DNA of 54,851 nucleotides from Candidatus Firestonebacteria bacterium RIFOXYD2_FULL_39_29 (GCA_001778375.1 MFGV01000019.1:1-54851), one strand, 5' to 3'; counted from the first letter of the stretch, positions 268 through 37,681 are shown. The notes: generated by a model from the letters alone, not told the origin. Numbers and translations are program-made.

Positions 268-1107
268 ATGAATAGTGATAAAAATCTTATTCAATTTGAA
301 GGAACGAAAATTAGAAGACATTGGGATAAACAGAAAGAAAAGTGGTATTTTTCTGTTGTGGATGTGGTTGGTGTGCTGTCTGAAAGTAATAATCCGGCCG
401 TTTATTGGCGTGTATTAAAAAAAAGGTTATTGGATGAGGGTTCAAATGAAACCGTTACAAAATGTAACGGTTTGAAAATGGTTGCTGCGGATGGAAAAAT
501 GAGAGAAACCGACATAGCCGATACTGAAACAATGTTTAGAATTATACAATCAATACCCTCCCCAAAAGCCGAACCTTTTAAGCAATGGCTTGCAAAGGTG
601 GGCTATGAACGGCTTCAGGATATGGGTGATCCCGCCCGCTCTGTTGACCGCGGACGTTTATACTGGCAACAGCAGGGAAGAAGTGATAAATGGATTCAGC
701 AGCGGATGATGGGACAGGAGACGCGCAATAAGTTAACAGATTATTGGAAAGATCATAAGATTATCAGAGAAGAGGAATATGCGTTTCTCACCAACATTAT
801 CCATAAGGAATGGGCCGGTGTAACGGTGAAAAAACATAAAGAAATAAAAAAGCTTAAAACACAGAATCTCAGGGATCATATGAGTGAGGCAGAACTGATT
901 TTTACGGCGCTGGCCGAACTTTCCACCAGACAAATCGCAGAGACTGTTCAGGCTGACGGCCTGGTTCAAAATACCGATGCAGCCAAAAAAGGCGGAAAGA
1001 TTGCAAAGCACGCCAGGCTTCAATTGGAAGAAAAAACCGGAAAAAGTATAATTACGGAGGAGAACTTTTTACCTCCTGCCGGACTAAAGAAGAAGATAAA
1101 GAAATGA
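268..1107 (+). CDS. BRO-N domain protein, DinD-like
   Basis: This 279-residue protein has an N-terminal BRO-family domain at about residues 8-105, the fold of phage antirepressors (FSVVDVVGVLSESNNPAVYW is typical). The C-terminal half resembles the DNA-damage-inducible DinD type, with a KGGKIAKHARLQLEEKTGKS segment. DinD proteins are known to act on RecA-DNA filaments; for this one the substrate is inferred only from family. The start is fixed by GGAGGTG four bases before ATG. A sigma-70 promoter lies at 104-132. No integrase or phage structural gene is nearby, so it stands as a solitary accessory gene of the kind that moves between genomes. Nothing is missing by length. Confidence 0.8.
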   Translation: MNSDKNLIQFEGTKIRRHWDKQKEKWYFSVVDVVGVLSESNNPAVYWRVLKKRLLDEGSNETVTKCNGLKMVAADGKMRETDIADTETMFRIIQSIPSPKAEPFKQWLAKVGYERLQDMGDPARSVDRGRLYWQQQGRSDKWIQQRMMGQETRNKLTDYWKDHKIIREEEYAFLTNIIHKEWAGVTVKKHKEIKKLKTQNLRDHMSEAELIFTALAELSTRQIAETVQADGLVQNTDAAKKGGKIAKHARLQLEEKTGKSIITEENFLPPAGLKKKIKK

Positions 1108-8979: not shown

Positions 8980-10515
8980 TTAATCCTCCGGAGAGTTATT
9001 TAAAAACTCTTGTTTGTAATTTGCTATAGCTTTTCCAAGCGCCTCGATAATGTCCGGCTCAAGGTCCAAAAAGTCTTTAATTCTTGTAATTATTTTATTG
9101 TGGTTCTCCTCCATAAATTTAAACAGCCCGGCTTCAAAATCCTTTACTTTTTCCACGGGCACATCATCAATATGGCCTTTTGTCACGGCAAAAAGTATAA
9201 TGACTTGTTTTTCAACGGAAACCGGTTTATACTGCTCCTGCTTAAGTATTTCCACCAGACGTTGTCCGCGGTCAAGCTGGGATTGAGTTACTTTGTCCAG
9301 TTCTGCGCCAAACTGCGCGAAATTAACAAGTTCCCAGTACTGACTAAGTGTATTCCGGAGTCCCCCTGCTGCTTTTCTCATAGCTTTGTTTTGCGCGGCA
9401 CCGCCGACCCTGGAAACTGAAAGTCCGGCATTTATGGCAGGGCGGATACCGGAGTAGAATAAATTACCTTCGAGATATATCTGCCCGTCGGTTATAGAAA
9501 TAACATTTGTCGGAATATACGCTGAAATATCCCCTGCTTGTGTTTCTATTATAGGAAGTGCTGTTAAAGTCCCGCCGCCTTTTTCATCATTCATCTTGGC
9601 CGCCCTTTCCAGCAGGCGGGAGTGAAGATAGAAAATATCTCCCGGGTATGCTTCTCTGCCTGGAGGTCTTCTAAGAAGTAAAGAGATCTCTCTGTAAGCA
9701 ACTGCATGTTTTGAAAGATCATCATAGATTATCAGCGCATGCCTTCCTGAATCCCTGAACTCTTCACCAATCGAGCATCCTGCGTAAGGCGCTATATATT
9801 GAAGGGAGGCGGGATCGGAAGCAGTAGCGGAAACAATTATCGTATGGTCAAGTGCCCCGTTTTTCTGAAGAACATCAACTACCTGCGCCACTGTGGATTT
9901 TTTCTGACCTATAGCAACATATATACAAATGACATCTGTATTTTTTTGATTAATTATCGCATCAATGGCGATGGCGGTTTTACCGGTTTGCCTGTCCCCG
10001 ATAATTAGTTCGCGCTGGCCTCTGCCTATCGGGATCATGGAATCGATCGCCTTAATTCCGGTTTGCAGAGGATTTTTTACGGGCGCTCTTTCCACGACCG
10101 AAGGTGCTCTCATTTCGATGGGTCTTGTTTTTTTATTAGGAATAGTACCTTTGCCGTCCAGAGGATTTCCGAGTGCGTCAATAACCCTGCCGCAAAGTTC
10201 TTTCCCAACCGGTACTTCAACTACTCTGCCGGTGCACTTTACAATATCCCCTTCTTTTATTGCTTCATCGTTTCCGAGAATAACGATACCTATATTATCT
10301 CTTTCCAGATTGAGCGCTATACCAAAAACCCCTTCTTTGAACTCTACCAGCTCAAAATACCTTACCTCATCGAGACCGTAAACCCGGCAAATGCCGTCGC
10401 CAACCTGGAGAACAATACCCGTGTTTTTCCGGTCCAGCTTGCTTTCAAATTCAGTTATGAGGCCTTTCAAAATAGAAGTTATCTCTTCAGGACTTGTCTT
10501 TACTTCTTTAGCCAT
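8980..10515 (-). CDS. atpA: F-type ATP synthase subunit alpha
   Basis: This 511-residue protein is the non-catalytic alpha subunit of the F1 head. The Walker A loop GDRQTGKT is at 173-180, and the SVSRVGG segment carries the arginine finger that completes the beta-subunit active site. The length matches the family (500-515). AAAGGGG precedes the ATG. It follows atpH after a 122-base gap that holds a perfect 15-bp inverted repeat, and leads directly into the cNMP-binding gene. The usual next genes (atpG, atpD, atpC) are absent, so gamma, beta and epsilon must be encoded elsewhere. Confidence 0.97.
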
Positions 10516-10527
10516 AATGACCCCTTT

Positions 10528-10631
10528 ATCCCGTTAGAAAATCACAAGACGTCGCATTCTAAATGACGCATGCTTTTACGGGTATATACTTGCATTAATA
10601 CTTTTCCATTTATCACATTTTCTAACGGGAT
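10528..10631. repeat. 104-bp MITE-like element with 15-bp perfect inverted termini
   Basis: ATCCCGTTAGAAAAT (10528-10542) and its exact reverse complement (10617-10631) bound a 104-bp segment between atpH and atpA. TTTATCCC occurs at both edges (10525-10532 and 10631-10638), which could include a short target duplication. An inner imperfect inverted pair (GACGTCGCATT / AATGACGC) lies at 10549-10570. Confidence 0.65.
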
Positions 10632-10637
10632 TTATCC

Positions 10638-11168
10638 CTACTTTAAAAGCAGGGTTCCAATTTCAGCAAGTTTATTTTTTAAGCTTCCGTCGTACATTTC
10701 CGTGCCTATACTTATGATCATTCCGCCGAGTAAAGAAGCTTCTACCGAATATTCTACAAGGAATCTGCTTTTATATCTTTTTTCCAGTGCGCTTGTTATT
10801 TTCGCCTTTTGTTCTTCCGAAAGAGAGAAGGCGCTCTTGATTTTAGCTGCCTTAAAACCGTGATTTTCATCGTAGATACTCTTAAACTCAATACCTATCT
10901 CCGGTAAAAAAGTAAAACGTTTTTTTTCTATAAGCAAAGAAAGAAAGTTAACCAGTTCTTTTGAAAGTTTTTCTGCAAATACTTTTTCTATTCCGGCCAC
11001 TTTGTTTTCAAGAGTAACTTTGGGATTGCTGAAAGCTTCATATGCTTTTCTGTCCATAGAAGATGTAATATCAAAAAGAGCGGCCCTTGTTTCTTCAACC
11101 TTATTTTGCTCTTTGGAAATTTCATACAGAGCCTTTGCGTATTTTTTTGCTATAGTTTTAACAAGCAT
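10638..11168 (-). CDS. atpH: F-type ATP synthase subunit delta
   Basis: A 176-residue protein of the OSCP/delta family, which joins the peripheral stalk to the top of F1. It has the N-terminal helical domain (IAKKYAKALYEISKEQNKVEE) and the C-terminal VEYSVEASLLGGMIISIGTEMYDGSLKNKL motif region that ends in a short helix. Length is normal. Its ATG overlaps the atpF stop by one base (TGATG), so translation is coupled. The stop is TAG at 10638-10640, showing that TAG is read as stop in this genome. Confidence 0.93.
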   Translation of the reverse strand: MLVKTIAKKYAKALYEISKEQNKVEETRAALFDITSSMDRKAYEAFSNPKVTLENKVAGIEKVFAEKLSKELVNFLSLLIEKKRFTFLPEIGIEFKSIYDENHGFKAAKIKSAFSLSEEQKAKITSALEKRYKSRFLVEYSVEASLLGGMIISIGTEMYDGSLKNKLAEIGTLLLK

Positions 11169-11659
11169 CAGGTATTTTCTACTTCTTTTATAATATCCTC
11201 AACTATCTTATCCTGTGTTTCTTTATTGATACTTTGTTTTATTACTTTCTCAGCGATAGTTATCCCGAGTGTTGCTACTTCAATGCGCATTTCTTTAAGC
11301 ATTTTTTCTTTTTCAATATCCAATTTTTCCTTGGTCTTTTCAAGGAGCTCTTTTGCTTCTTCGCGTGCTTTTAGAACAATGTCATTTCTGATTTCATTGC
11401 CTTCTTTTGTTGCCTCGCGGATTTTTTCCTGAAACTTTTTTTCTATAGTCTCCAGTTGTTTCTCGTACTCTGCCTTAAGTTTTTCAACGTCAATTTTTTG
11501 TTTTTCCGCCGAATCTATAGTGTTTTTTATCAAATCTGTCCGGTCCTGCATCTTTTTTGAAAAACCTTTAAGGAATACGAACCAAATAAGCACCATTCCC
11601 GCAAGGAAAGTGGCGATATTTATTAATATTAAAGGTAAATCAACGCTTAAATCAACCAT
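11168..11659 (-). CDS. atpF: F-type ATP synthase subunit b
   Basis: A 163-residue stalk subunit with one N-terminal membrane helix (about residues 8-30, LPLILINIATFLAGMVLIW) followed by a long Lys/Glu-rich coiled coil (about 35-150). It anchors the delta/alpha head to subunit a. GAGGTG lies upstream of the ATG with a spacing of about 7 bases. Only one b gene is seen, so the peripheral stalk is probably a homodimer. It is preceded by a 113-base gap with a hairpin and overlaps atpH by one base. Confidence 0.93.
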   Translation of the reverse strand: MVDLSVDLPLILINIATFLAGMVLIWFVFLKGFSKKMQDRTDLIKNTIDSAEKQKIDVEKLKAEYEKQLETIEKKFQEKIREATKEGNEIRNDIVLKAREEAKELLEKTKEKLDIEKEKMLKEMRIEVATLGITIAEKVIKQSINKETQDKIVEDIIKEVENT

Positions 11660-11772
11660 AAAACAACACCTCGTTTAAGAAAAATAAGTTTATCTCGCTA
11701 TGTCAACGATAGTTGACATTTATATTTCTTTCCTATCGAGAAAAGCTTTGCTTACAGCAGAAACCAGTGAAG
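11660..11772 (-). promoter_or_regulatory. hairpin between atpE and atpF
   Basis: ATGTCAAC and GTTGACAT (11700-11719) pair perfectly around GATA. Flanking TCTCG/CGAGA arms extend the fold to about 11694-11742. Its position suggests mRNA processing or protection that sets c-subunit stoichiometry, which is inference. Confidence 0.5.
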
Positions 11773-12144
11773 TTATTTCTTTTTTGCTTCTGCTTTGGGA
11801 GCTGCTACTTTAACCATGGAAAGCTCTTTTTCGAGCTTGTTTTTTTCCAGTTCGAGTTTTAAAACCTCTACTTCGGCTTTTGCTTTCTCCACGCTCATTG
11901 CGGGAGCCGTGAAGGGGTTCGCAAAGAGTATGATAATCGCAATTGCCAGCACGTAGATCGCGATAGATTCAATAAAAGCAAGCGCCAGTATCATTGCGCC
12001 CTGGATTTTTCCTGCCGCTTCCGGCTGTCTGGAAATACCTTCCACTGCTTTTCCTGCCGTAATTCCCTGTCCGAGTCCCGTCATAAGAGACCCTATTGCC
12101 ATTGCAAACCCTGCCGCAAAAATAGAAACTTCCAATATCCCCAT
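11773..12144 (-). CDS. atpE: F-type ATP synthase subunit c, sodium type, with C-terminal extension
   Basis: This 123-residue protein forms the rotor ring. Two membrane helices (about 4-30 and 48-76) flank the RQPE loop at 39-42. The ion site has Gln26, Glu59, Ser60 and Tyr64, the same spacing as the Na+ ligands Q32, E65, S66, Y70 of Ilyobacter tartaricus, so Na+ coupling is likely. After the usual end of the protein (about residue 83) a 40-residue charged, heptad-like tail follows ([20 protein letters not shown] then a Lys/Ala end), which most c subunits lack. The ATG at 12144 is chosen because GGAGGATCAAG precedes it; an upstream ATG at 12165 has no SD. It lies between atpB and atpF, each across a gap with a hairpin. 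Confidence 0.94.
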
Positions 12145-12189
12145 CTTGATCCTCCATTTGGGCAAAAAAGCCCGAAAATTTAATTGCAG

Positions 12190-12245
12190 TTAATAGTTTA
12201 CCGTTTACAGTTAAAAACAAATGCTCTTACTGTACACTGTAAACT
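12190..12245. repeat. GTTTAC-word inverted repeat between atpB and atpE
   Basis: GTTTACAGT (12203-12211) and ACTGTAAAC (12236-12244) are perfect inverted arms; GTTTACC at 12196 repeats the word directly. The hairpin sits in the short gap of the operon. Confidence 0.6.
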
Positions 12246-12249
12246 TCTT

Positions 12250-13041
12250 TTAATGTTCATGTTCTTCTATTGCTGACCCTATATATATCATCGAGAGCAC
12301 CGTGAATACCAGTGCCTGAACAAAACTTACGAAAGCTCCGAGTAAAATAATACCCGGTCTTAAAATAACCGGCAATGCAATCAAGCCATCCTTTATGATA
12401 CCGGAAACTGGTATGCCGAATATTTTTGCCGGCGGAATATACAGAACAATAAAAACAGTAAATAGAAACGCAAGAACGCTAAGCAGTATCTCTTTTGCAA
12501 GTATATTAAAAAAAAGTCTAAGAGTAAGTGAAATCGGCCTTATCAGTTCCCCTACCGTGTGTATGAGTATAAATAACGGAACAAGGAACAAATAATATAA
12601 CAACAGAGGTCCTCCTTTTGGTTCTATAAAGTGACGGAAATAATTTTTAACCCCTTTTTTCATAATTCCAAAAAAATGTGTAGCTAAAAATATTATTAAA
12701 GCCAGGGAAAGATTTATGCTTAAGTTGCTTGTAGGGGATTTAAGCCCCGGGACAAGGCCTATCAAATTTGAGATAAAGATAAAAGAAAAGAGCATGGCAA
12801 AGAGAGGGAAGAACGGCTTTCCGGCTTCACCCATAAAATCCGCAATTTTAGTGTTTATCCATTCTATGGAAAATTCCAAAAAATTTTGAAAGCCTTTTGG
12901 CGCCAGCTTCATAGCGATAGAACCCATGAATGCTATGAAAACAATAACAGCCATAACGAGCCATGACATTGTCAGGGCCTCCGGAATACCGGGGATGTGA
13001 ATAAATATAAGTTCTTTTATACCTTCTTCTTCTGCAGCCAT
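12250..13041 (-). CDS. atpB: F-type ATP synthase subunit a
   Basis: A 263-residue membrane protein forming the stator half of the ion channel. Five or six membrane helices are visible. SNLIGLVPGLKSPTSNLSIN and SLTLRLFFNILAKEI are family hallmarks, and Arg175 in the latter is the conserved arginine that faces the c-ring carboxylate. The length is in the normal range. The stop codon of the upstream atpI-like gene is followed directly by this ATG, so the genes are coupled. Confidence 0.95.
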   Translation of the reverse strand: MAAEEEGIKELIFIHIPGIPEALTMSWLVMAVIVFIAFMGSIAMKLAPKGFQNFLEFSIEWINTKIADFMGEAGKPFFPLFAMLFSFIFISNLIGLVPGLKSPTSNLSINLSLALIIFLATHFFGIMKKGVKNYFRHFIEPKGGPLLLYYLFLVPLFILIHTVGELIRPISLTLRLFFNILAKEILLSVLAFLFTVFIVLYIPPAKIFGIPVSGIIKDGLIALPVILRPGIILLGAFVSFVQALVFTVLSMIYIGSAIEEHEH

Positions 13042-13359
13042 TTAACCTTTATCTTTTATTTCTTTTAATTTGTTTCTTGTCTTTGTATATTTAATAGTCA
13101 TAACAATTGTATGTATTACTAGTCCTGCCAGAGTACCGAGAGCCATTACTTTGCTGACATAGGTTATTAAAATATAGATTACCAGCAGGATAACTGCCAG
13201 CCGTATTACCGAAAAAATTGAAACAAAAGCCACCGCTTTTTTCTTGTCGGTTTTAAGAAGTCTAATAGCAAAATATTGCCTTAAGAAAGCGTTGCCAAAA
13301 CCAAGTAAAAGCCCGAGAAACCCGCCCCAGGCCGCATATAAAATACCTGCCAGAGTCAT
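13042..13359 (-). CDS. AtpI-like small membrane protein
   Basis: A 105-residue protein with about four hydrophobic segments (residues ~5-28, 43-65, 66-90) in the position of ATP synthase protein I, which helps assemble the c ring. Sequence similarity to known AtpI is weak by eye, so the call rests on size, topology and its place between atpZ and atpB. The last 17 residues are Lys-rich and cytoplasmic. Its start overlaps the atpZ stop by four bases. Confidence 0.75.
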   Translation of the reverse strand: MTLAGILYAAWGGFLGLLLGFGNAFLRQYFAIRLLKTDKKKAVAFVSIFSVIRLAVILLVIYILITYVSKVMALGTLAGLVIHTIVMTIKYTKTRNKLKEIKDKG

Positions 13360-16353: not shown

Positions 16354-17893
<1,540 letters not shown>

Positions 17894-17984
17894 TTTGATC
17901 AACACAAAGCGAACAAACGTAACCATCTATCTCTATAATAATATTTGAAGCATTACGCGATTGCGTTAGCGAGGGCTCGGTTTG

Positions 17985-18061
<77 letters not shown>

Positions 18062-18071
18062 TTAAATCAGA

Positions 18072-18147
18072 GAATGGAAAATAGAAAATCGAGAATAGAT
18101 TAAGGAATAGATCTGATCGGCTTTCAAATCTCGATTCTCGATTTTCA
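18072..18147. repeat. inverted repeat of TCTCGATT words between the tRNAs
   Basis: AAAATCGAGAAT (18085-18096) and ATTCTCGATTTT (18134-18145) are perfect 12-bp arms. Additional words AGAATGGAAAAT and CAAATCTCG extend the likeness. Confidence 0.75.
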
Positions 18148-18153
18148 AAAAAT

Positions 18154-18230
18154 GGGGGTGTAGCTCAGCTGGGAGAGCACCTGCTTTGCAAGCAGGGGGT
18201 TCAGGGGTTCGATCCCCCTCACCTCCACCA
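18154..18230 (+). tRNA. tRNA-Ala (TGC)
   Basis: A complete cloverleaf with acceptor GGGGGTG/CACCTCC, anticodon TGC at 18187-18189, T-loop GTTCGATC and encoded CCA. Confidence 0.97.
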
Positions 18231-18254
18231 ATTTTAATCTTAGATTAAAATTGG
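18228..18254. repeat. 27-bp perfect palindrome overlapping the CCA end of tRNA-Ala
   Basis: CCAATTTTAATCT (18228-18240) and AGATTAAAATTGG (18242-18254) are exact inverted 13-bp arms around one T. The first three bases are the CCA of the tRNA. As RNA it would form a strong hairpin directly at the tRNA 3' end. Confidence 0.7.
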
Positions 18255-18269
18255 TAGAGAATTGATATT

Positions 18270-18325
18270 CGAGATTTGAAAATAGATAAAAATCGATTCG
18301 GTCTACTCTCGATTTTCGAATCTCG
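18270..18325. repeat. second TCTCGATT-type inverted repeat before 23S
   Basis: CGAGATTTGAAAATAGA (18270-18286) and TCGATTTTCGAATCTCG (18309-18325) are inverted and match at 15 of 17 positions. The words are the same as in the repeat between the tRNAs. Confidence 0.7.
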
Positions 18326-18371
18326 GGAATAGGGCTTTGCAATCGATAACGTAATGGCGCAATGTTTCAAG

Positions 18372-18383
18372 TGTTCTTTGAGA
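18372..18383 (+). promoter_or_regulatory. boxA-like antitermination site before 23S
   Basis: TGTTCTTTGAGA differs at one base from TGATCTTTGAGA in the 16S leader and resembles the bacterial boxA core (TGcTCTTTaA). Confidence 0.65.
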
Positions 18384-18475
18384 TTTTGTACGACAGAAAA
18401 AAAGTAAAGTTGATATACCCAGAACAGTTAATATTTTTTGTATTGAAACAAACGTAGAAAAGATTTAAGTAATAT

Positions 18476-21477
<3,002 letters not shown>

Positions 21478-21618
21478 ATATTAATTAACTCTTTTCGAGT
21501 TAATGTATGTCAGTCGCGCACCAATCAACAACGAATGTTTTACAGCTTTAAAATTTTCAACTGACTTTACTTTGATTCGAATCGTACAAGATCTCATGCT
21601 CTTATACATATAAATTAT

Positions 21619-21734
21619 GTTAGCGATTTTACCAGAGGGGAAACACCCGTTCCCATTTCGAACACGGCAGTTAAGACCTCTAGGGCCAATGGTATTGCAC
21701 GGGCAACCGTGTGGGAGAGTAGGACGTCGCTAAC
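21619..21734 (+). rRNA. rrf: 5S ribosomal RNA
   Basis: Closing stem GTTAGCGA/TCGCTAAC, with CCCATTTCGAACACGG and GGGAGAGTAGGACGTCGC typical of bacterial 5S. About 116 nt, about 140 bases after 23S. Confidence 0.95.
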
Positions 21735-21744
21735 TTGCTATCAT

Positions 21745-22403: not shown

Positions 22404-22431
22404 CCTAGTTGAATAATGTTTGGAGGAAAAG

Positions 22432-23475
22432 ATGGTAAATAATAAAAACAACACATTTGAATCCGGTTATCCTGATTTACTAAAAGAGATAAAGGAACGG
22501 ATAACATCTGCAAGGATTAAAGCCTCCCGGTCGGTTAATACAGAACTTATAAAATTGTATTGGGACATAGGTAAAATGATAGTTTTGCGTCAGGAAAAAT
22601 ATAAATGGGGCGATAATATTGTAGAAAAATTGGCAAAAGATTTACAGGAAGAAATTACAAAGAGTGTCGGTTTTTCAAGTCGCAACCTATGGGAAATGCG
22701 AAGATTCTATTACACTTATAAAGATTTCCCAATTCTGCAACAGCTTGTTGCAGAATTACCCTGGGGTCAGAACGTTGTTATTTTGCAAATGGTTAAAAAC
22801 AAGGAGGAAAGAGAATATTATCTTAAGGCCACAGCGGAAATGGGCTGGAGCAGGAGTGTGTTAATTCATCAGATTAAGGCCGATGCGTATGAATATCATA
22901 AAAAACTGCCAAAGCAACACAATTTTGAAAAAGCATTACCTGTTCATCTGGCCGAACAGGCGGATGAATCGTTGAAAAGCCTGTATAATCTTGATTTTCT
23001 TAATATAACAAAACCTGTATTGGAGCGAGAATTAGAAAGACGTCTTGTAGAAAAGGTAAAGCGGTTTATGCTTGAAATGGGGAAAGGATTTTCCTTTATA
23101 GGTAATCAATACCGTTTAACATTGAGTGACAATGAATACTTTGTTGACCTTTTGTTTTTTAACAGGATTCTCAAATGTCTTGTGGCCGTTGAATTAAAAA
23201 CCGTGAAATTTGAGGTTGAACATTCGGCGAAAATGGATTTATATCTTGATCTACTAAATAAGCAAGCGAAATACAAAGGTGAGAATTCGTCAATAGGTAT
23301 AATATTTTGTGTAGAAAAAAATTCCGTTGTTGTTGAATACGCCTTGAGCCGTACAGTTAATCCAGTAGGTGTTGCAGGGTATAAGTTAACCTCAAAACCT
23401 TCAGTCGAGCTTAAAAAATTGTTACCTTCTGAAAAAGAAGTTAAAAAAGAATTAATAGCGGAGTATGGTAAATAA
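22432..23475 (+). CDS. DUF1016/YhcG-type PD-(D/E)XK nuclease-domain protein
   Basis: A 347-residue protein of the DUF1016 family. The N-terminal helical domain (about 10-165) has typical text: SVNTELIKLYWDIGKMI and GFSSRNLWEMRRFY. The C-terminal domain (about 205-320) is PD-(D/E)XK-like, with FVDLLFFNRILKCLVAVELK supplying the D..ExK motif. Members have been linked to recombination and to restriction-modification or mobile loci, and a nuclease role is probable. ATG 22432 is chosen because TTTGGAGGAAAAG precedes it; the TTG at 22420 lies inside that site. It belongs to a small accessory cluster with an ORF6N gene. Confidence 0.88.
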   Translation: MVNNKNNTFESGYPDLLKEIKERITSARIKASRSVNTELIKLYWDIGKMIVLRQEKYKWGDNIVEKLAKDLQEEITKSVGFSSRNLWEMRRFYYTYKDFPILQQLVAELPWGQNVVILQMVKNKEEREYYLKATAEMGWSRSVLIHQIKADAYEYHKKLPKQHNFEKALPVHLAEQADESLKSLYNLDFLNITKPVLERELERRLVEKVKRFMLEMGKGFSFIGNQYRLTLSDNEYFVDLLFFNRILKCLVAVELKTVKFEVEHSAKMDLYLDLLNKQAKYKGENSSIGIIFCVEKNSVVVEYALSRTVNPVGVAGYKLTSKPSVELKKLLPSEKEVKKELIAEYGK

Positions 23476-23569
23476 ACTAAAAAGCATCAAGGAACTCTAC
23501 AAAACAGCTTTTACGTTAGCACCGTTCAAATGTGGAACGTGCAACAATCTTTTATTCAAGGGGGAAAGT

Positions 23570-23965
23570 ATGGAAAAGGTAAATATCGTGAGCAGGGAAG
23601 AGAGGGAGAAGAAGGACAAGAGCGGGAAGTATTTTGTGTACAAATCCGCGGACGGCAGGGAGATGCTCAGCAAGCAGAAGTATGAAGAAGGCGAGCAGGA
23701 GTTTGAGGTAACGCCGTCAAAAGACGGAAGAATTCTCTGGCTAAAAAAAGCCGGTGAACCAAGCGCTAAAAGCAGTTCAGTAAAAGCGCCGAAGGCCGAT
23801 AAGGGCCCGCTTGCCGGAAAATCAAACGAGTTAAATTTGCTTGGGAGCTCAATAGAACTTGCCAAACTCTGGGTAAAAGAAGGTCTCGTTGCCAAACCCA
23901 AAGCTCTCGACGAAATGGAAGAATATATAATAGAAGCCCGCACCCGTCTTCAAAAAATGTTGTAA
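23570..23965 (+). CDS. hypothetical protein
   Basis: A 131-residue protein. I take ATG 23570, preceded by AAGGGGGAAAG, over the in-frame GTG at 23465, which would overlap the nuclease gene and add a Cys-containing 35-residue extension. Residues 1-60 form a basic beta-rich region (REEREKKDKSGKYFVYKSAD, then EFEVTPSKDGRILWL), followed by a flexible Lys/Ser/Pro linker (about 61-85) and a helical C-terminus (LGSSIELAKLWVKEGLV). The layout resembles small nucleic-acid-binding OB-fold proteins with a linker, but I cannot name a family. A REPIN-like element follows its stop by nine bases. Confidence 0.6.
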   Translation: MEKVNIVSREEREKKDKSGKYFVYKSADGREMLSKQKYEEGEQEFEVTPSKDGRILWLKKAGEPSAKSSSVKAPKADKGPLAGKSNELNLLGSSIELAKLWVKEGLVAKPKALDEMEEYIIEARTRLQKML

Positions 23966-23973
23966 AGAAAAGA

Positions 23974-24009
23974 GGGGACAGACAACGGGTATTATCGGTG
24001 TCTGTCCCC
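23974..24009. repeat. REPIN-like element 2
   Basis: GGGGACAGACAACG (23974-23987) and CGGTGTCTGTCCCC (23996-24009) are inverted, 13 of 14 matching, around an 8-base loop. This is the clearest copy. Confidence 0.75.
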
Positions 24010-24062
24010 GGTTATAACTTGCAATGAAAGATAAAATAAAAAATATCTAAAAGGGGAGACTT

Positions 24063-24641
24063 ATGGAAGATCATTCCGTTATAAAAGAAATCATTACAAA
24101 TAAAATATATCACATAAGAGAACAAAAAGTAATGCTAGATAGAGACCTGGCGGAACTATATAATGTGGAAACAAGGATCTTGAATCGAAATGTCAGAAGA
24201 AATATAAACAGATTTCCTGAGGATTTCATGTTTGCACTTAGAAGAGAAGAAATTATGAACTTGTCCCAATTTGGGATAAGTTCAATTAAACATGCTCCAA
24301 ATGTATTTGTTTTTACAAGAAGGGGTGTCTCAATGCTCTCGTCAGTCCTTAATAGTGAGCGCGCTATTAGAGTAAACATAGAAATAATGAGAATATTTGA
24401 CAGTCTGGAATTGTTTTTAACAACACATAAAGAATTGGCAAGCAAATTAAAAGAACTCGAAATAAAATTCAATAAATATAGCAATCTTGAAACCAAAATA
24501 AATACACACAACGATATTATTAAGGATATCTTGGAGCAAATACGTCGAATGATAAGCTCGCCGGTTAAGCAAGTTAAGAAATATGGATTTCACAAGCAAG
24601 AAGGGAAGAGAGATAATGATAAAATAAATAGAAAAAAATGA
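24063..24641 (+). CDS. ORF6N domain protein
   Basis: A 192-residue protein with the ORF6N DNA-binding domain at about residues 8-95. IYHIREQKVMLDRDLAELYN, NRNVRRNINRFPEDFMFAL and FVFTRRGVSMLSSVLNSERA are hallmarks of this phage-antirepressor-related family. A coiled coil (about 115-155) and a basic tail follow. The role is inferred as DNA-binding regulation; such genes spread with phage and plasmids. AAAGGGGAGACTT precedes the ATG. The next gene lies 267 bases downstream. Confidence 0.9.
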   Translation: MEDHSVIKEIITNKIYHIREQKVMLDRDLAELYNVETRILNRNVRRNINRFPEDFMFALRREEIMNLSQFGISSIKHAPNVFVFTRRGVSMLSSVLNSERAIRVNIEIMRIFDSLELFLTTHKELASKLKELEIKFNKYSNLETKINTHNDIIKDILEQIRRMISSPVKQVKKYGFHKQEGKRDNDKINRKK

Positions 24642-30798: not shown

Positions 30799-32643
30799 TT
30801 GGATTTTCTGACGGTGGATTGGAAGCTTTCTTTTGACTCACTTTCAATCTTCTTCGGAGTCGTAATACTGCTTGTTGCTCTACCATCTGCGTTGTATTCG
30901 ACCGGTTACATGAAAGGTTTGTATTCACGCGGGAGGGCTTCTTTTGCTCAAATCCTTTTATTTTTCTTTGTAATCTCAATGCTCCTTGTAGTATTTTCCG
31001 CAAATGCCCTTTTTTTCCTCCTTGCGTGGGAAGCGATGTCTCTTCTTTCCTATTTTCTGGTTACACTTGACTCTCATGAAGAAAAAGCGGTTAACGCCGG
31101 ACTTATTTATGTGCTAATGACCCACATCGGAACTGCTTTTATTACGACGGCGTTTTTGATCCTTTATTTTTATTCAGGTTCGTTTGATTTTATATTAATG
31201 AAAGAAACCTGTTTAAACCTGCCCTTAAATATTAAAACAGTTATATTCCTTTGTTTTTTAATAGGTTTTGGCACTAAGGCAGGGCTTGTTCCTTTCCATA
31301 TATGGCTGCCTTACGCCCATCCGGAAGCACCCAGCCATATTTCTTCAATAATGTCCGGAGCGATGATAAAACTGGGCGTGTATGGTTTTATCAGATTTGT
31401 TATTTATATTCTGGGAGCAAGTGAGCTCTGGTGGGGAAATCTTGTTCTTGTTATCGCAGGTGTATCCGCTGTTTACGGTATTTTATACGCGCTTATGGAA
31501 AAAGACCTGAAGAAGATGCTTGCCTACAGCAGTATAGAAAATATGGGAATAATAATGCTCGGGGTCGGCGGTTATATGGTCTTTCTGAATATGCAGTTTC
31601 CGCTTCTGGCTGTTCTCTCTCTTTCCGCCGCGCTCTATCATATAATTAATCACGCGATATTTAAAACCTTGCTCTTTCTTTGTTCCGGTGTCGTGCTCAA
31701 GGCCTGCGGTACGAAAAACATGGAAAAGCTGGGCGGGCTAATTAAACTAATGCCGGTCACCGCGTTTTGCTTTTTAATAGGAGCGCTTGCAATATCAGCA
31801 ATCCCTCCTTTTAACGGTTTTGTAAGCGAGTGGTTGATGCTTCAGTCTCTTTTTTCCGGTGCTGTTTCGGTGCCTGCAGAACTCTTTGGCAAGATGAAAG
31901 TATTTCTGGCTCTGCTGGCCGGAGCTCTTGCTCTTACCGGAGGGCTTGCCGCGGCCTGTTTTGTTAAAGCTTTTGGTATTTCTTTCCTGGCGCTTCCCAG
32001 ATCAAAAAAAGCGGAGGCGGGGAAGGATTTTGACTGGACGATGAAAACACCGCTTATATTTTTATCCTCTTTGACTCTTCTTTTTGGTATTTTTGCCGCT
32101 CCGGTTTTTAAGTTACTGGCAAAAATAACCGCTGATATTTCAGGATTCAAGAGTGCAGGATCAGAGCTGACATCCGGACTGCTCTCGCTTTCACCTCAGG
32201 GAACATTTCATTTTAACGGACTGCTCCTGGTTTTACTTGTTCTTGCAGTCAGCATAATTGTTTATATAATTGTCAGAATAATATCAAGAGAAAGGAGTGT
32301 AACCTATGGACGTACATGGGACTGCGGTTATTACGGGCTGACAGCGAGAAATCAATATACCGCTACAGGCTTTTCCAAACCTTTAAGGATGGCGTTTAAT
32401 TTTATTTTAAGGCCTTATAAGAAGACGGAGAAAGTAAGAGATTCTTACTATCATGTTAAATCGTTTAAATATGAGATATTTACAAAACAATTATTTACGG
32501 AGTATTTTTACTCGCCGATAATAAAAAGATTGTTCAGTTTTTCGGAGTCAATAAGAAAAATACAATATGGAAGTATTCATCTGTATATAGGGTATATTTT
32601 TCTTGCCGTAATATTTCTGATAATATTTTTAAAGAGGTTTTAA
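30799..32643 (+). CDS. HyfB/NuoL-type antiporter-like subunit
   Basis: A 614-residue membrane protein of the proton/sodium-pumping ND2/4/5 family, closest in layout to hydrogenase-4 subunit B. About 15-16 membrane helices. The channel helices carry PFHIWLPYAHPEAPSHISSI and LKKMLAYSSIENMG, the two family signatures with the key Lys and His. A C-terminal stretch (about 500-614) has RTWDCGYYG, typical of HyfB. A TTG start is chosen because it follows GAAGGG and a stop lies 18 bases upstream in frame. Its stop overlaps the next ATG (TAATG). First gene of a six-gene operon. Confidence 0.9.
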   Translation: MDFLTVDWKLSFDSLSIFFGVVILLVALPSALYSTGYMKGLYSRGRASFAQILLFFFVISMLLVVFSANALFFLLAWEAMSLLSYFLVTLDSHEEKAVNAGLIYVLMTHIGTAFITTAFLILYFYSGSFDFILMKETCLNLPLNIKTVIFLCFLIGFGTKAGLVPFHIWLPYAHPEAPSHISSIMSGAMIKLGVYGFIRFVIYILGASELWWGNLVLVIAGVSAVYGILYALMEKDLKKMLAYSSIENMGIIMLGVGGYMVFLNMQFPLLAVLSLSAALYHIINHAIFKTLLFLCSGVVLKACGTKNMEKLGGLIKLMPVTAFCFLIGALAISAIPPFNGFVSEWLMLQSLFSGAVSVPAELFGKMKVFLALLAGALALTGGLAAACFVKAFGISFLALPRSKKAEAGKDFDWTMKTPLIFLSSLTLLFGIFAAPVFKLLAKITADISGFKSAGSELTSGLLSLSPQGTFHFNGLLLVLLVLAVSIIVYIIVRIISRERSVTYGRTWDCGYYGLTARNQYTATGFSKPLRMAFNFILRPYKKTEKVRDSYYHVKSFKYEIFTKQLFTEYFYSPIIKRLFSFSESIRKIQYGSIHLYIGYIFLAVIFLIIFLKRF

Positions 32644-33521
32644 TGAAAATGCTTTTACAGGTTATACTCATAATTATCCTGGCGCCCTTAATGAGCGGTC
32701 TCATAAAAAAGATCAAGAATAATGCCAGGATGAGAAAAGGGGCTCCCATACTGCAGCCTTATTATAATCTGGCTAAACTAATTAAAAAAGATGAGACTAT
32801 CTCAAAAGATACTTCGTATATCTTTAAAGTAACGCCTTACATTGTTTTAACGGCTTCAATAGCCGCAGCATTTTTAACGCCTTTCTTTTTTCCGGGAGTA
32901 CGGCTGTTTGGCATCGGGGATGTTTTTGTTATTGTCTTTATCTTCGGTCTCGGGAGATTTTTCATTGCTCTTGCCGGACTTGATGCCGGCAGCGCCTTCG
33001 GGGGGATGGGTTCTTCCCGGGAGATGTTCATCTCAGCTCTTGCGGAACCGGCGCTTCTTACCGCGCTCTTTGCGGCGTCTTTAAACGCCGGGGGAAGCGG
33101 AATCGGCTCTCTTATGGCATCAGGAGCTGTCTTTAAAGTATCCATGCTTTGCGCGGGCCTGGCTTTTTATTTTGTACTGCTTGCAGAGACTTCACGGGTA
33201 CCGGTGGATAATCAGGAGACGCACCTTGAACTTACAATGATACATGAAGCGATGATCCTGGAGTACTCAGGAAAATCCCTGGCGATGATAGAACTTGGCG
33301 GGTATATTAAACAAATTATACTAATTTCTTTACTTGCTAATATCTTTATTCCCGGAAGCGGCTGGGATCTGTATATAGTCAAATTGTTTGTTGTCCTTGT
33401 AGTTACTGCTCTTCTGGAGGTGTTCATGGCTAAAATGCGTCTGTTCCGCGCTGTGGATTTCCTGATATTTTCCTTTATTCTTTCTTTTGCGGCGGTAATT
33501 GCCGTTGTTATGGGAGTGTGA
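32643..33521 (+). CDS. HyfC/NuoH-type membrane anchor subunit
   Basis: A 292-residue protein with eight membrane helices, homologous to NuoH/HycD/HyfC, the subunit that joins the peripheral arm to the pumping arm. Hallmarks are GAPILQPYYNLAKLIKKDET near residues 32-51, and SRVPVDNQETHLELTMIHEA, the acidic loop of the coupling chain. Length is normal for the hydrogenase type. It overlaps the upstream stop by one base; the next gene is six bases away. Confidence 0.92.
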   Translation: MKMLLQVILIIILAPLMSGLIKKIKNNARMRKGAPILQPYYNLAKLIKKDETISKDTSYIFKVTPYIVLTASIAAAFLTPFFFPGVRLFGIGDVFVIVFIFGLGRFFIALAGLDAGSAFGGMGSSREMFISALAEPALLTALFAASLNAGGSGIGSLMASGAVFKVSMLCAGLAFYFVLLAETSRVPVDNQETHLELTMIHEAMILEYSGKSLAMIELGGYIKQIILISLLANIFIPGSGWDLYIVKLFVVLVVTALLEVFMAKMRLFRAVDFLIFSFILSFAAVIAVVMGV

Positions 33522-33527
33522 TCAAAT

Positions 33528-34160
33528 ATGGAAATGATGCTATACGGAATCCTTGTTATATCTCTGATGATGACTGTTGTAAAAAGATTTTCCGCGCTTG
33601 TCACTGCTTTTGCTCTGCAATCGTTTCTTCTTTTTCTTCTTATACTTATTGAGGCATTAAAAAGCGGAAGTATACAGCTCTATATTGTTGCCGGGCTTAT
33701 TCTTGTAATGAAAGTTATAGCTATTCCGGCTTTTCTCGGAAGGATAGTAAAAAAAATTAAAACATCGGAAGAACTCGGCCTTTTCGTAAATACGGCGCTT
33801 TCAATATTAATAGCCGTGGCTCTTGTCGGTATCGCATATTATTTCATAGGTAATTTCCTGCCTGCTATGGAGAAGGAAGCAAAAACCGCTCTGGTTATAG
33901 CTCTCTCCGTTACCTTGATTGGGGTTTTTATCATGATCTTCAGAATGAAAGCTCTGGCCCAGGTGGTCGGGCTTCTTATAATGGAAAACGGGATATTTCT
34001 TGCCGGTGCTTCTATAACTGACGGAGTCCCGTTCTTTGTAGAGATAGCGGTCTCTTTTGATGTTTTTGTTGCCGTAATAATTCTCGGAGTATTTGTTTAC
34101 AGGATAAACAGTTTATTTACCCATATAGACGCTGACAAATTAAATGAGCTGAAGGGTTGA
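33528..34160 (+). CDS. HyfE-type membrane subunit
   Basis: A 210-residue protein with six or seven membrane helices, in the position and size of hydrogenase-4 component E, whose C-terminal part is NuoK-like (LLIMENGIFLAGASITDGVP carries the helix Glu). It would supply the third ion path of the complex. It starts six bases after the previous gene, and the next start follows one base after its stop. Confidence 0.87.
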   Translation: MEMMLYGILVISLMMTVVKRFSALVTAFALQSFLLFLLILIEALKSGSIQLYIVAGLILVMKVIAIPAFLGRIVKKIKTSEELGLFVNTALSILIAVALVGIAYYFIGNFLPAMEKEAKTALVIALSVTLIGVFIMIFRMKALAQVVGLLIMENGIFLAGASITDGVPFFVEIAVSFDVFVAVIILGVFVYRINSLFTHIDADKLNELKG

Positions 34161-34161
34161 G

Positions 34162-35601
34162 ATGGAAATAATAATATTATTCATAACTCTCTTGATTGCC
34201 GCAGCGGTTTCGTTCTTTGTAAAGAAACCTAAAGCTGCGGGATTGATCACACTATGGGGACAGGTTCTTGCCTCGTTCTTTGCTTTGCTTCTTTGTTTTA
34301 AAATTACAACAAACGGTCCTCTTACCGTTTTAAATTTCTTTTATGCGGATGCTTTAAGCGCTTTCTTTCTTTTGTTGATCTCTGTTTCCGCCGTTGCTTC
34401 AGCCTTCTATTCAAAGTGGTACTTTAAAGATGAGGAAAATACAGGGTTTTACAACGCCCTTTTCAATATTTTTGTTTTTTCAATGTACCTTGTGGTGACC
34501 GTTAATAATCTTGGAATGCTCTGGGTCTCGGTTGAAGTAACGACCCTGGCTTCCGCATTCTTAGTCGGTTATAGAAATAATAAAACTTCGGTTGAGGCGG
34601 CGTGGAAATATATAATTATCTGTTCCGTAGGCATTACCCTGGCTCTCTTTGGAATAATACTGTTTTCGTATACTGCCACGGCAGACGCCGGAATAAAAAG
34701 TCTTAACTGGACTGAATTGAATTCTGCCAGGAGTTTGTTTAACCCTATGGTGGTAAAAGCCGCTTTCATTTTTATAGTGGTGGGTTTCGGTACTAAAGCG
34801 GGACTTGCTCCCATGCATAACTGGCTGCCGGACGCGCACAGCCAGGCGCCTTCTCCGATAAGCGCTTTATTATCGGGAGTGCTTCTTAAAGCTTCTATCT
34901 ATGCGATCATAAGATTCTTAATTATTGCGGCAGGCAGCGTGGGCTTTTCCTTTTGCGGCAACATACTGGGGCTTTTTGGTTTGATCTCTTTAGGTATCGC
35001 GGCATTTTTTATTCTTGTCCAGAAGGACATAAAAAGACTTCTGGCATACTCAAGTGTCGAGCATGTGGGGTTGATCTCTGTCGGTTTCTATTTTGGTGGA
35101 AAGATCGGTATTTTTGGCGCTCTCTTTCACGCGTTAAATCATTCACTGGCCAAGGGGCTTATGTTCTTTTCCTCTGGAAATATTATTAAAAAGTACGGTA
35201 CAAATAATATTAACCAGATCAAGGGTGCGCTCGAAACTGTTCCTCTGGCGGCTACCGCTGCTTTTATCGGTATGTTTGCTCTTGCCGGAATGCCTCCGTT
35301 TTCTATTTTTATGAGTGAATTTACGATCTTAATGGCGGGATTTAAAGGCGGCTATTATTACAGCGCCTCGGCGGTGCTTTTATTTCTTGCAATTACTTTC
35401 GGGGCTCTTGTCTACCAGTTTGGCGGAATGCTTTTCGGAAAAAAACCGGGGAATATTGAGAAAACAAGGGAACCCCTGGATATATCAGTGTTATTCGGAG
35501 TAATAATAGCAATAATGCTTGTTTTTGGAGTGCATTTACCGGAATTTGTCAGCACGGTTATTTCTAATGCTTCGGATGTTATACTTGGAGCCGGATTATG
35601 A
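34162..35601 (+). CDS. HyfF/NuoN-type antiporter-like subunit
   Basis: A 479-residue protein with about 14 membrane helices, the second antiporter-like subunit of the complex. Signatures are HNWLPDAHSQAPSPISALLS and KRLLAYSSVEHVGL, matching hydrogenase-4 subunit F. With the HyfB-like subunit, the complex would have two full ion channels. It overlaps the start of the large-subunit gene by four bases (ATGA). Confidence 0.92.
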   Translation: MEIIILFITLLIAAAVSFFVKKPKAAGLITLWGQVLASFFALLLCFKITTNGPLTVLNFFYADALSAFFLLLISVSAVASAFYSKWYFKDEENTGFYNALFNIFVFSMYLVVTVNNLGMLWVSVEVTTLASAFLVGYRNNKTSVEAAWKYIIICSVGITLALFGIILFSYTATADAGIKSLNWTELNSARSLFNPMVVKAAFIFIVVGFGTKAGLAPMHNWLPDAHSQAPSPISALLSGVLLKASIYAIIRFLIIAAGSVGFSFCGNILGLFGLISLGIAAFFILVQKDIKRLLAYSSVEHVGLISVGFYFGGKIGIFGALFHALNHSLAKGLMFFSSGNIIKKYGTNNINQIKGALETVPLAATAAFIGMFALAGMPPFSIFMSEFTILMAGFKGGYYYSASAVLLFLAITFGALVYQFGGMLFGKKPGNIEKTREPLDISVLFGVIIAIMLVFGVHLPEFVSTVISNASDVILGAGL

Positions 35602-37178
35602 ACTATAACGAATTTAAAAAAAGCTTCATAGAAAAAAGCGGTTTTGCGGCAGAGCTTATCCGTGAAGCCGGCGAAGAAATATATATCAAAACAAATCATG
35701 AAAATTATCTGGATACCTGCCTTCTTCTTCACCGGGGGCTTTTATCGCCTGTAATGATCTATTTTGCCGAGGATAACACAAAAGACCTCGGGGTTTATAC
35801 TCTTTACTGCGGCTTCCTTGGCAAACAGGTCAAGAAATGGATCTTTGCCGTATTGGATGTGGAAAAAGAAGTGAAGGAGTTCCCTTCTCTCTCAAAAAAT
35901 ATTGTTTCCGCGCAGCTGTTCGAAAGAGAGATCAGAGAGATGTTCGGTTTAATTCCCAAAGGGAGCCCGGATGAAAGGCGTTTTCGCCTGCATGAAGAGG
36001 TTTGGCCGGAAGGTTATTATCCTTTAAGAAAGGATTTTATAAGACCGGAAAAAACAGGCAGCACGGGAAAAGAATATGTCTTTGATAAAATAGAAGGAGA
36101 AGGTGTTTTTGAAGTGCCCGTCGGGCCAGTGCATGCCGGAATAATCGGCCCCGGGCATTTTAGATTTTCCGTTGCGGGAGAGCCTATAATAAATCTGGAG
36201 CTCCGGCTCGGGTTTACTCACAGGGGAGTGGAAAAACTCTTTGAAGGAAGAACGGTGCAGGATTCTCTTAAGCTTGCCGAATGTGTATCTGGAGATTCTG
36301 CTTTTGCTCACGGATTGGCTTTCACGCTTGCGGTTGAAAAAACCTGCGGTATTCCGGTAAGTGAAAGAACGAAATATTTCAGAAGTATTTGCCTGGAACT
36401 GGAGCGTATTTATAATCATGTTAATGATATCGGAGGAATGGCCGTAGATGTGGCTTTTTCGTACCCTTCGGCGCTTGCTTCCATAATAAAGGAAAATATT
36501 TTAAGATTAAACGAAAAACTTTCAAACCACAGGTATTTAAAAGGAATAAACGCTTTTGGAAACTGCGAGCTTGCTCTTTCACCCGGTAAACAGGCGGAAG
36601 TATTTAAAGTATTGGAGCAGGCGGAAGAAGACATGAAAATACTTAAAGAAATACTTTTTTCCTCCGTTTCCTTTATGGACAGGGTGGACACGACAGGGCT
36701 GCTTCGCCGTAAGACTGCGGAGGATTTTGGAATAACGGGATTGGCCGCCAGAGCAACGGGAATAAAAACGGATCTAAGGACTGTGTTTCCCGGGGCCTAC
36801 ATGAAAACTTCTTTTATGCTTGCCAGGCAGGAAAAAGGTGATGTGCTGGCGAGATTGAATGTGCGTTTTGATGAAGTCAGCGTTTCTCTCCGTCTGATAA
36901 AAGAGTTCATGAATTTATTAGCAGAGCAAAAGTCGGAAGAAAAAAAAGATGCTGCGGTGAAAGAAGGAGCGGGAGTCGGATGTTGTGAAGGATTCCGCGG
37001 GCCGGTTATTTACTGGGTAAAGCTGGACAACGACGGCAAAGTTGAGCGTTGCAAAATAGTTGATGCTTCTTTTAATAACTGGCAGGGACTTTCTTACTGT
37101 GTGCTAGGAAACATTGTGCCGGACTTTCCGCTGTGCAATAAAAGTTTTGACCTTTCGTATTCGGGAGGGGATCTGTGA
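35598..37178 (+). CDS. fused NuoC-NuoD/HyfG-type large subunit lacking Ni-Fe cysteines
   Basis: A 526-residue protein. Residues ~1-150 form a NuoC-like domain (AQLFEREIREMFGLIPKG, YYPLRKDF), and ~165-526 a NiFe-hydrogenase large-subunit/NuoD-like domain. In active group 4 hydrogenases loop L1 reads CGxC and loop L2 DPCxxC. Here L1 reads S231-G-D-S234 (CVSGDSAFAH) and L2 reads D518-L-S520-Y-S-G523 close to the C-terminus, so all four Ni-Fe cysteines are Ser or Gly. It cannot be a normal hydrogenase. It fits the Ehr (energy-converting hydrogenase-related) group or a complex-I-like quinone or other redox module. Both ends overlap neighbours by four bases. Confidence 0.9.
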   Translation: MNYNEFKKSFIEKSGFAAELIREAGEEIYIKTNHENYLDTCLLLHRGLLSPVMIYFAEDNTKDLGVYTLYCGFLGKQVKKWIFAVLDVEKEVKEFPSLSKNIVSAQLFEREIREMFGLIPKGSPDERRFRLHEEVWPEGYYPLRKDFIRPEKTGSTGKEYVFDKIEGEGVFEVPVGPVHAGIIGPGHFRFSVAGEPIINLELRLGFTHRGVEKLFEGRTVQDSLKLAECVSGDSAFAHGLAFTLAVEKTCGIPVSERTKYFRSICLELERIYNHVNDIGGMAVDVAFSYPSALASIIKENILRLNEKLSNHRYLKGINAFGNCELALSPGKQAEVFKVLEQAEEDMKILKEILFSSVSFMDRVDTTGLLRRKTAEDFGITGLAARATGIKTDLRTVFPGAYMKTSFMLARQEKGDVLARLNVRFDEVSVSLRLIKEFMNLLAEQKSEEKKDAAVKEGAGVGCCEGFRGPVIYWVKLDNDGKVERCKIVDASFNNWQGLSYCVLGNIVPDFPLCNKSFDLSYSGGDL

Positions 37179-37681
37179 ACAATATATATAATATCGCAAA
37201 ATCCAGGATACAAAAAGGTGTTGTAACGGAAGAACTGACTTTGATCGGTGAAGCTCTAAAATCAGAGATACAAAAGAAATTTAACAGGTCGCTTCATATA
37301 AGAGAAGTTGATACCGGCTCCTGCGGCGCCTGCGAATCAGAGATAATATCGACAACAAACCCTTTGTATGATATCCAAAGGTTCGGAGTGGATTTTGTTG
37401 CCTCCCCAAGGCATGCAGACGCTTTACTTGTTACAGGTCCGGTCACACTAAATATGGCAGTAGCGCTTAAAAGAACTTATGACGCGATGCCGACTCCAAA
37501 ATTTGTAATTACCGCCGGTGATTGTGCCTTTGACGGCGGTCCTTTTAAAGGTTCTTACTATATAGAAGGCGGGGTAAGCAAAATAATCCCCGTAGATTTT
37601 CACGTCCCGGGATGTCCGCCAAAACCAATTGACTTGATCAAGCACATCCTTCTTGCCGTCAAAAATATTAAAGTTAATTAA
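37175..37681 (+). CDS. HyfI/NuoB-type iron-sulfur small subunit
   Basis: A 168-residue protein holding the proximal [4Fe-4S] cluster. The four ligands are Cys50, Cys53 (GSCGACE), Cys117 (GDCAFDGG) and Cys147 (PGCPPKP), so the cluster is intact. The CxxC spacing is the hydrogenase type, not the CC pair of NuoB. It starts with GTG, overlapping the large-subunit stop (GTGA). It is the last gene of the operon, and no ferredoxin-like (HyfH/NuoI) subunit follows, so the electron donor is not encoded here. Confidence 0.93.
   Translation: MNNIYNIAKSRIQKGVVTEELTLIGEALKSEIQKKFNRSLHIREVDTGSCGACESEIISTTNPLYDIQRFGVDFVASPRHADALLVTGPVTLNMAVALKRTYDAMPTPKFVITAGDCAFDGGPFKGSYYIEGGVSKIIPVDFHVPGCPPKPIDLIKHILLAVKNIKVN

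Follow-up and report, generated by a model that had tools for sequence, protein, structure and literature searches.

The window analysed here is a stretch of 54,851 nucleotides from Candidatus Firestonebacteria bacterium RIFOXYD2_FULL_39_29 (GCA_001778375.1, MFGV01000019.1:1-54851). It contains six genes on the same strand (30799-37681) in the order B-C-E-F-G-I, with all frames intact and neighbours that overlap or sit at most 7 bases apart (Table 1). Pfam and NCBIfam names describe their products as HyfB-, HyfC/NuoH-, HyfE-, HyfF-, NuoC-NuoD- and NuoB-like. The original prediction had the four membrane-subunit genes as intact and coupled, and this agrees with what we find between 30799 and 35601, where their ends overlap or nearly touch. 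Charged residues are present in the NuoH-like subunit. The N-terminus of EhrA is about 70 residues shorter than that of HyfB, as it is in several relatives of the same subclade, and the cysteine-bearing Chloroflexi relative L055 has the long version. A small upstream ORF as the source of the missing N-terminus was rejected, since none is conserved.

Table 1. Features of the window, with positions counted from its first nucleotide.
Feature	Position	Strand	Remarks
EhrA/HyfB-like antiporter subunit, 614 aa	30799..32643	+	channel Glu/Lys/His residues present
EhrB/HyfC-like membrane anchor, NuoH family, 292 aa	32643..33521	+	
EhrC/HyfE-like membrane subunit, 210 aa	33528..34160	+	
EhrD/HyfF-like antiporter subunit, 479 aa	34162..35601	+	channel Glu/Lys/His residues present
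Large subunit, NuoC-NuoD fusion, 526 aa	35598..37178	+	HycE fold; without Ni-Fe cysteines
G184 at the proton-relay Glu position of the beta1-beta2 loop	36147..36149	+	from alignment
L1 motif S231-G-D-S234 replacing C-G-x-C	36288..36299	+	from alignment
L2 and C-terminus, DFPLCNKSFDLSYSGGDL, residues 509-526	37122..37175	+	ends at Asp-Leu
Small subunit, NuoB/HyfI-like, 168 aa	37175..37681	+	one [4Fe-4S] site; no ferredoxin domain
F-type ATP synthase operon	8980..13359		
ATP synthase c-subunit	11773..12165	-	GQG and ES..Y residues
Complete rRNA operon, 16S-tRNAIle-tRNAAla-23S-5S	16354..21735	+	
BRO-N, DUF1016/YhcG nuclease and ORF6N-domain genes	268..1107, 22420..24641	+	either side of the rRNA operon

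Elsewhere in the window, the c-subunit of the ATP synthase is unusual in that a charged stretch of about 40 residues extends its C-terminus, and its GQG and ES..Y residues resemble those of Na+-binding c-rings. The BRO-N, DUF1016 and ORF6N-domain genes are of kinds that frequently occur in mobile DNA or DNA of phage origin.

The large subunit lacks the four cysteine ligands (CGxC and PCxxC) by which a group 4 [NiFe] hydrogenase is recognised. Its L1 loop, AECVSGDSAFAH, aligns without gaps to DRVCGICGFAH of HycE, so that CGIC falls on S231-G-D-S234. Its L2 loop, SFDLSYSGGDL, aligns to SLDPCYSCTDR, and here PCYSC falls on L519-S520-Y-S-G523. All four ligand positions are altered (S231, S234, and S520 and G523 at the L2 cysteines), as had been claimed for this group-4-hydrogenase-like subunit, and the open reading frames lie where they had been placed. 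Among 76 Ehr-type proteins, about 46 of them independent, the L1 Gly is conserved in 100% and the L1 Asp in 95%, and Asn-Lys-Ser-Phe, Tyr521 and the final Asp-Leu are about 98% conserved. All but one of the 76 stop exactly at Asp-Leu, and the last is truncated where its contig ends. The features that Ehr conserves are L1 G-D, a C-terminal NKSFxLSYxGxDL and, in the small subunit, GDC. The original prediction read serines in both loops as the sign of a remodelled site; the remodelling stands, but the serine description is too narrow, as the second position of L1 can be S, T, A or N, and in L2 the second position is occupied by Gly.

Other functional residues also differ. The proton-relay Glu of the beta1-beta2 loop (E193 in HycE, PMC9474812; E21 in MbhL, PMC7684303) is Gly184 in the window and Gly in its subclade. 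It is retained in the Ehr of Proteobacteria, of other families of the window's phylum and of part of the Actinobacteria, and because most other Ehr proteins keep it, its change to Gly is a later and separate step. In the alignment the quinone residues of complex I (Nqo4 H38 and Y87) are not conserved either, and quinone reduction by the known chemistry is therefore not indicated.

The replacements are genuine. They recur in L003, a related species whose metagenome was assembled independently (88% identical), and in more than 40 further genomes, which excludes the base-calling error that had been named as a possible refutation. All 57 loci of the protein search carry the same motifs, except the cysteine-bearing L045 and L055, the odd L057 and the NuoD-like L059. 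The comparison with L003, which covers five operon genes because the EhrA gene lies off the L003 contig, gives dN/dS values of 0.050-0.080, and the 44 loop codons differ by 12 synonymous and no amino-acid changes. These five genes are under strong purifying selection, and the check on selection suggested with the original prediction comes out in its favour. Loss of every Ni-Fe ligand is also what a decaying hydrogenase would show, but the strong purifying selection in the five comparable genes, the identical replacements across phyla and the intact frames refute decay, to which we give practically no weight. Judged from these comparisons, the active site is remodelled and not decaying.

A tree of 96 large subunits, built with the loop columns removed, brings the Ehr-type proteins together in one clade (support 92/83), in which 76 large subunits from several phyla with the replacement motifs stand apart from NuoD and HycE. 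The sister group of this clade has three members: L045 from Negativicutes and L055 from Chloroflexi retain both CxxC pairs, and L057 has CGVS in L1 and a missing C-terminus. Ehr and its sister group together split from HycE, HyfG and NuoD at 100/99. Membership of the NuoD clade with conserved quinone residues had been named as the other possible refutation; the tree puts Ehr apart from NuoD, and the loss of cysteines is therefore independent of that in complex I. NKSF in L2 is common to Ehr, L045 and L055, and for this reason is older than the cysteine loss.

Within the Ehr clade, the window belongs to 44 rows (100/99) with Omnitrophota, Elusimicrobia, Margulisbacteria and WOR-1. The six-gene order is kept in Omnitrophota, Elusimicrobia, WOR-1 and Firestonebacteria and on plasmids of Proteobacteria. 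In actinobacterial Ehr operons the small-subunit gene stands first. An ArsR-type regulator lies near several of these operons and near that of L055 (L044, L048, L051, L054-L056), and this arrangement in the Actinobacteria may resemble the Rv0081-Rv0087 locus of Mycobacterium tuberculosis. In its own phylum the window subtype occurs only in its own genus and one sister genus, and other families have an Ehr type that is 35-41% identical with the motif SYCGxDL. This patchiness suggests that the subtype was acquired by horizontal transfer.

Ehr is on record in Saganbacteria, Margulisbacteria, CPR and Geobacter. Its large subunit is described as being without Ni and Fe ligands (PMC6349859; PMC7304191), and HydDB leaves it out as non-H2-metabolising (PMC5037454). 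Like Ehr, the window has a ligand-free group-4-like large subunit, NuoB-/NuoD-like soluble subunits and, in the same operon, NuoH/NuoL/NuoM-like membrane subunits, two of them antiporter-like; it differs in that its genome has no detectable formate dehydrogenase and in its Gly at the proton-relay position. The Ehr-like identity given in the original prediction is mostly right, on the evidence of a shared clade and shared loop motifs with proteins of WOR-1/Saganbacteria, phyla reported to carry Ehr (PMC6349859). The complex is of a known type (Ehr/Hyq) that is functionally unsolved, and the window adds a member and not a new type. What is new are the joint absence of metal site and electron wire, the invariant small-subunit Asp and C-terminal Asp-Leu, the exchange of Glu for Gly, and the evidence against formate dehydrogenase as a general partner.

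The small subunit keeps the four cluster cysteines attributed to it, a CxxC pair (C50, C53) followed by C117 and C147, and their spacing is that of hydrogenases, not the Cys-Cys of complex I. In Ehr small subunits an invariant Asp (D116 in the window) adjoins the third cluster cysteine to give GDC; its position is taken by Ala in the cysteine-bearing relatives and by Ser in complex I. The small subunits of L045 and L055 (253 and 340 aa) carry a fused N-terminal ferredoxin-like, HyfH-like domain, which is less regular in L055. Such a domain is absent from every Ehr small subunit examined, and the longer ones (L043, L058, L011, L026) owe their length to the choice of start codon and have no cluster motif there. 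No HyfA/HyfH-type ferredoxin gene lies within the window operon. The claim that a HyfH/NuoI subunit is missing holds for the operon but not for the genome, in which NuoI is found on contig C11. The two-cluster ferredoxin genes in the scanned flanks were, besides the fused domain of L045, three unrelated ones kilobases away (L008, L017, L027), as detected by a strict pattern that the irregular L055 domain escaped; that domain was found by reading the sequence. Because both readable cysteine-bearing sisters have the fused domain and the examined Ehr proteins have none, metal site and wire are missing together. This is a correlation from two informative sisters, the small subunit of L057 lying off its contig, and not a dated event.

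Among solved structures, E. coli formate hydrogenlyase offers the best relatives of the two soluble subunits, namely HycE (7z0s_E) and HycG (7z0s_G). The large subunit as modelled by AlphaFold2 (mean pLDDT 85) reaches a TM-score of 0.88 against HycE. Formate hydrogenlyase-1 and hydrogenase-4 (HycE, HyfG) thus share the fold and the subunit relationships with the window, but the window lacks their Ni-Fe cysteines, their C-terminal extension (32 residues past the motif in HycE/HyfG), HycB/HycF (HyfA/HyfH) and HyfD. The sulfane sulfur reductase MBS of Pyrococcus is, like Ehr, a complex I relative in which hydrogenase activity went with the Ni-Fe ligands; however, MBS retains two of the four cysteines and the ferredoxin subunit MbsN (PMC7684303), and Ehr retains neither. 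Respiratory complex I (NuoB, NuoD) shares with Ehr the superfamily, the fold and the loss of all four Ni-Fe cysteines, whereas the window has neither the quinone His/Tyr nor the tandem Cys-Cys of the small subunit, and falls in a separate clade.

The host genome is 96% complete. It encodes an ordinary complex I over two contigs, with NuoI adjoining NuoB-C-D-H on C11, one RnfC-like protein and, as candidates for quinone biosynthesis, four UbiA-family genes, one of which is MenA-like but below the cut-offs. Its two FeFe hydrogenases are assigned to group A6, and their clusters lie side by side on contig C61 with NuoE/NuoF-like genes (L075, L076, L083, L084). Neither HypD nor PF00384 (molybdopterin oxidoreductase) was detected in the host genome, with 4 and 11 control genomes positive. 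This bears on the FDH-Ehr model of Matheus Carnevali et al. (2019), in which Ehr receives its electrons from a Mo/W formate dehydrogenase that has NuoE/NuoF-like subunits. The model draws on Saganbacteria and Margulisbacteria, where fdhA occurs together with nuoE/F-like genes (PMC6349859), and formate-grown Geobacter has more of all Ehr subunits (PMC7894505). We surveyed 23 genomes with the window subtype, namely the host, two of the same family and 20 reached through the loci. PF00384 was detectable in three of them, which are exactly WOR-1/Margulisbacteria, the lineages behind the model, but not in the other 20, including the host and the complete Velamenicoccus chromosome. Some of the 23 are incomplete drafts, so that single absences are weak, but the overall pattern is not. 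Formate dehydrogenase therefore cannot be the general partner of the window subtype, and we consider it very improbable as the explanation here.

HypD was absent from 16 of the 23 genomes. It is an imperfect marker, because the Velamenicoccus genome (that of L030) has a CxxC-bearing group 4 hydrogenase gene with a C-terminal extension, L132, yet no HypD match. Because this gene is a separate one, we also rejected the notion that an Ehr had been mistaken for the '4g hydrogenase' reported for Velamenicoccus (PMC10066038).

Among systems with experimental data, Hyq of Azorhizobium caulinodans (hyqRBCEFGI) comes closest, and it is a better reference than the link to Geobacter. It has six structural genes in the same order as the window, a fused NuoC-NuoD, the loss of both CxxC motifs, and the CxxC/C/C cluster cysteines of the small subunit. 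The window differs from it in having no regulator gene and no hyqR adjoining the operon (recQ lies upstream), and in its anaerobe-type genome with FeFe hydrogenases. Deletion of the operon alters diazotrophic growth and H2 exchange, although these data are indirect (PMC2650096, PMC3357923). An atypical H2-active enzyme has been proposed for Hyq, which would convert H2 to protons and back, with quinone, somewhere other than at a cysteine-bound Ni-Fe centre. Such an activity could fit the deletion of hyqRBCEFGI, in which H2 evolution rose about 15-fold at 20 uM O2 and fell about 2.7-fold microaerobically (PMC3357923), and it could extend to the window through the gene order, the lost CxxC motifs and the proteobacterial relatives with B-C-E-F-G-I order within the same Ehr clade. 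However, these are effects of deleting a whole operon, and the Hyq authors themselves doubt a Ni-Fe site. In our own alignment the conserved Cys-258, -491 and -497 of HyqG correspond to A282, C513 and L519, so that one of three is kept, and a cysteine-based alternative site therefore cannot be general for Ehr. The proton-relay Glu is also missing from the window, as is HypD from its genome. We regard an H2-active enzyme as improbable in the window.

A search for a conserved partner gene beside the operon was negative, as none recurs among 55 loci. The recurrent neighbours are an ArsR-type regulator, an ABC-F ATPase and a short membrane protein, and they look incidental or regulatory. The absence of a recurrent partner speaks against the redox explanation that we prefer below. 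It might instead favour a complex that is not redox-driven, in which the soluble arm senses or gates while the membrane arm acts as a secondary cation/proton antiporter; the two Mrp-like antiporter subunits and the loss of both metal site and wire would fit this too. But the cluster cysteines and the surroundings of the former active site are nearly invariant, and a pure antiporter would not need them, which makes this reading unlikely, if somewhat less so than an H2-active enzyme. From the conserved cluster cysteines and from homology we infer a redox role. The explanation we prefer, at roughly even chances, is an Ehr/Hyq-type redox-driven ion pump with the membrane arm of hydrogenase-4/complex I, a single proximal [4Fe-4S] cluster, no Ni-Fe centre and a soluble donor. 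Gene content, purifying selection, the channel residues of both antiporter subunits and the conserved polar residues at the old active site support it. A soluble carrier, most simply a ferredoxin, would dock where HyfH/NuoI sits in relatives, and would trade electrons, via the proximal cluster, with a small molecule held as substrate by the remodelled L1/L2 pocket. This transfer would drive the two antiporter-like subunits to translocate H+ or Na+. Of these, Na+ may be the ion, because the c-subunit of the window's ATP synthase resembles those of Na+-binding c-rings.

The range of Ehr extends from Actinobacteria and rhizobia as far as uncultured phyla of groundwater. Automatic annotation labels such proteins as nickel-dependent hydrogenase or NADH-quinone oxidoreductase subunits despite the absent Ni-Fe ligands. 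We tentatively propose, with the balance leaning against it, that the complex I superfamily includes Ehr as a widespread catalytic type, whose own cysteine-free site by the proximal cluster might bind either a hard metal ion or an organic compound as substrate. This site would be made of Gly-Asp from L1, Ser-Tyr-x-Gly from L2, the carboxylate of the fixed C-terminal Asp-Leu and Gly-Asp-Cys from the small subunit, and would have arisen with the joint loss of Ni-Fe and the ferredoxin wire. The short list of invariant residues marks where the new site should lie.
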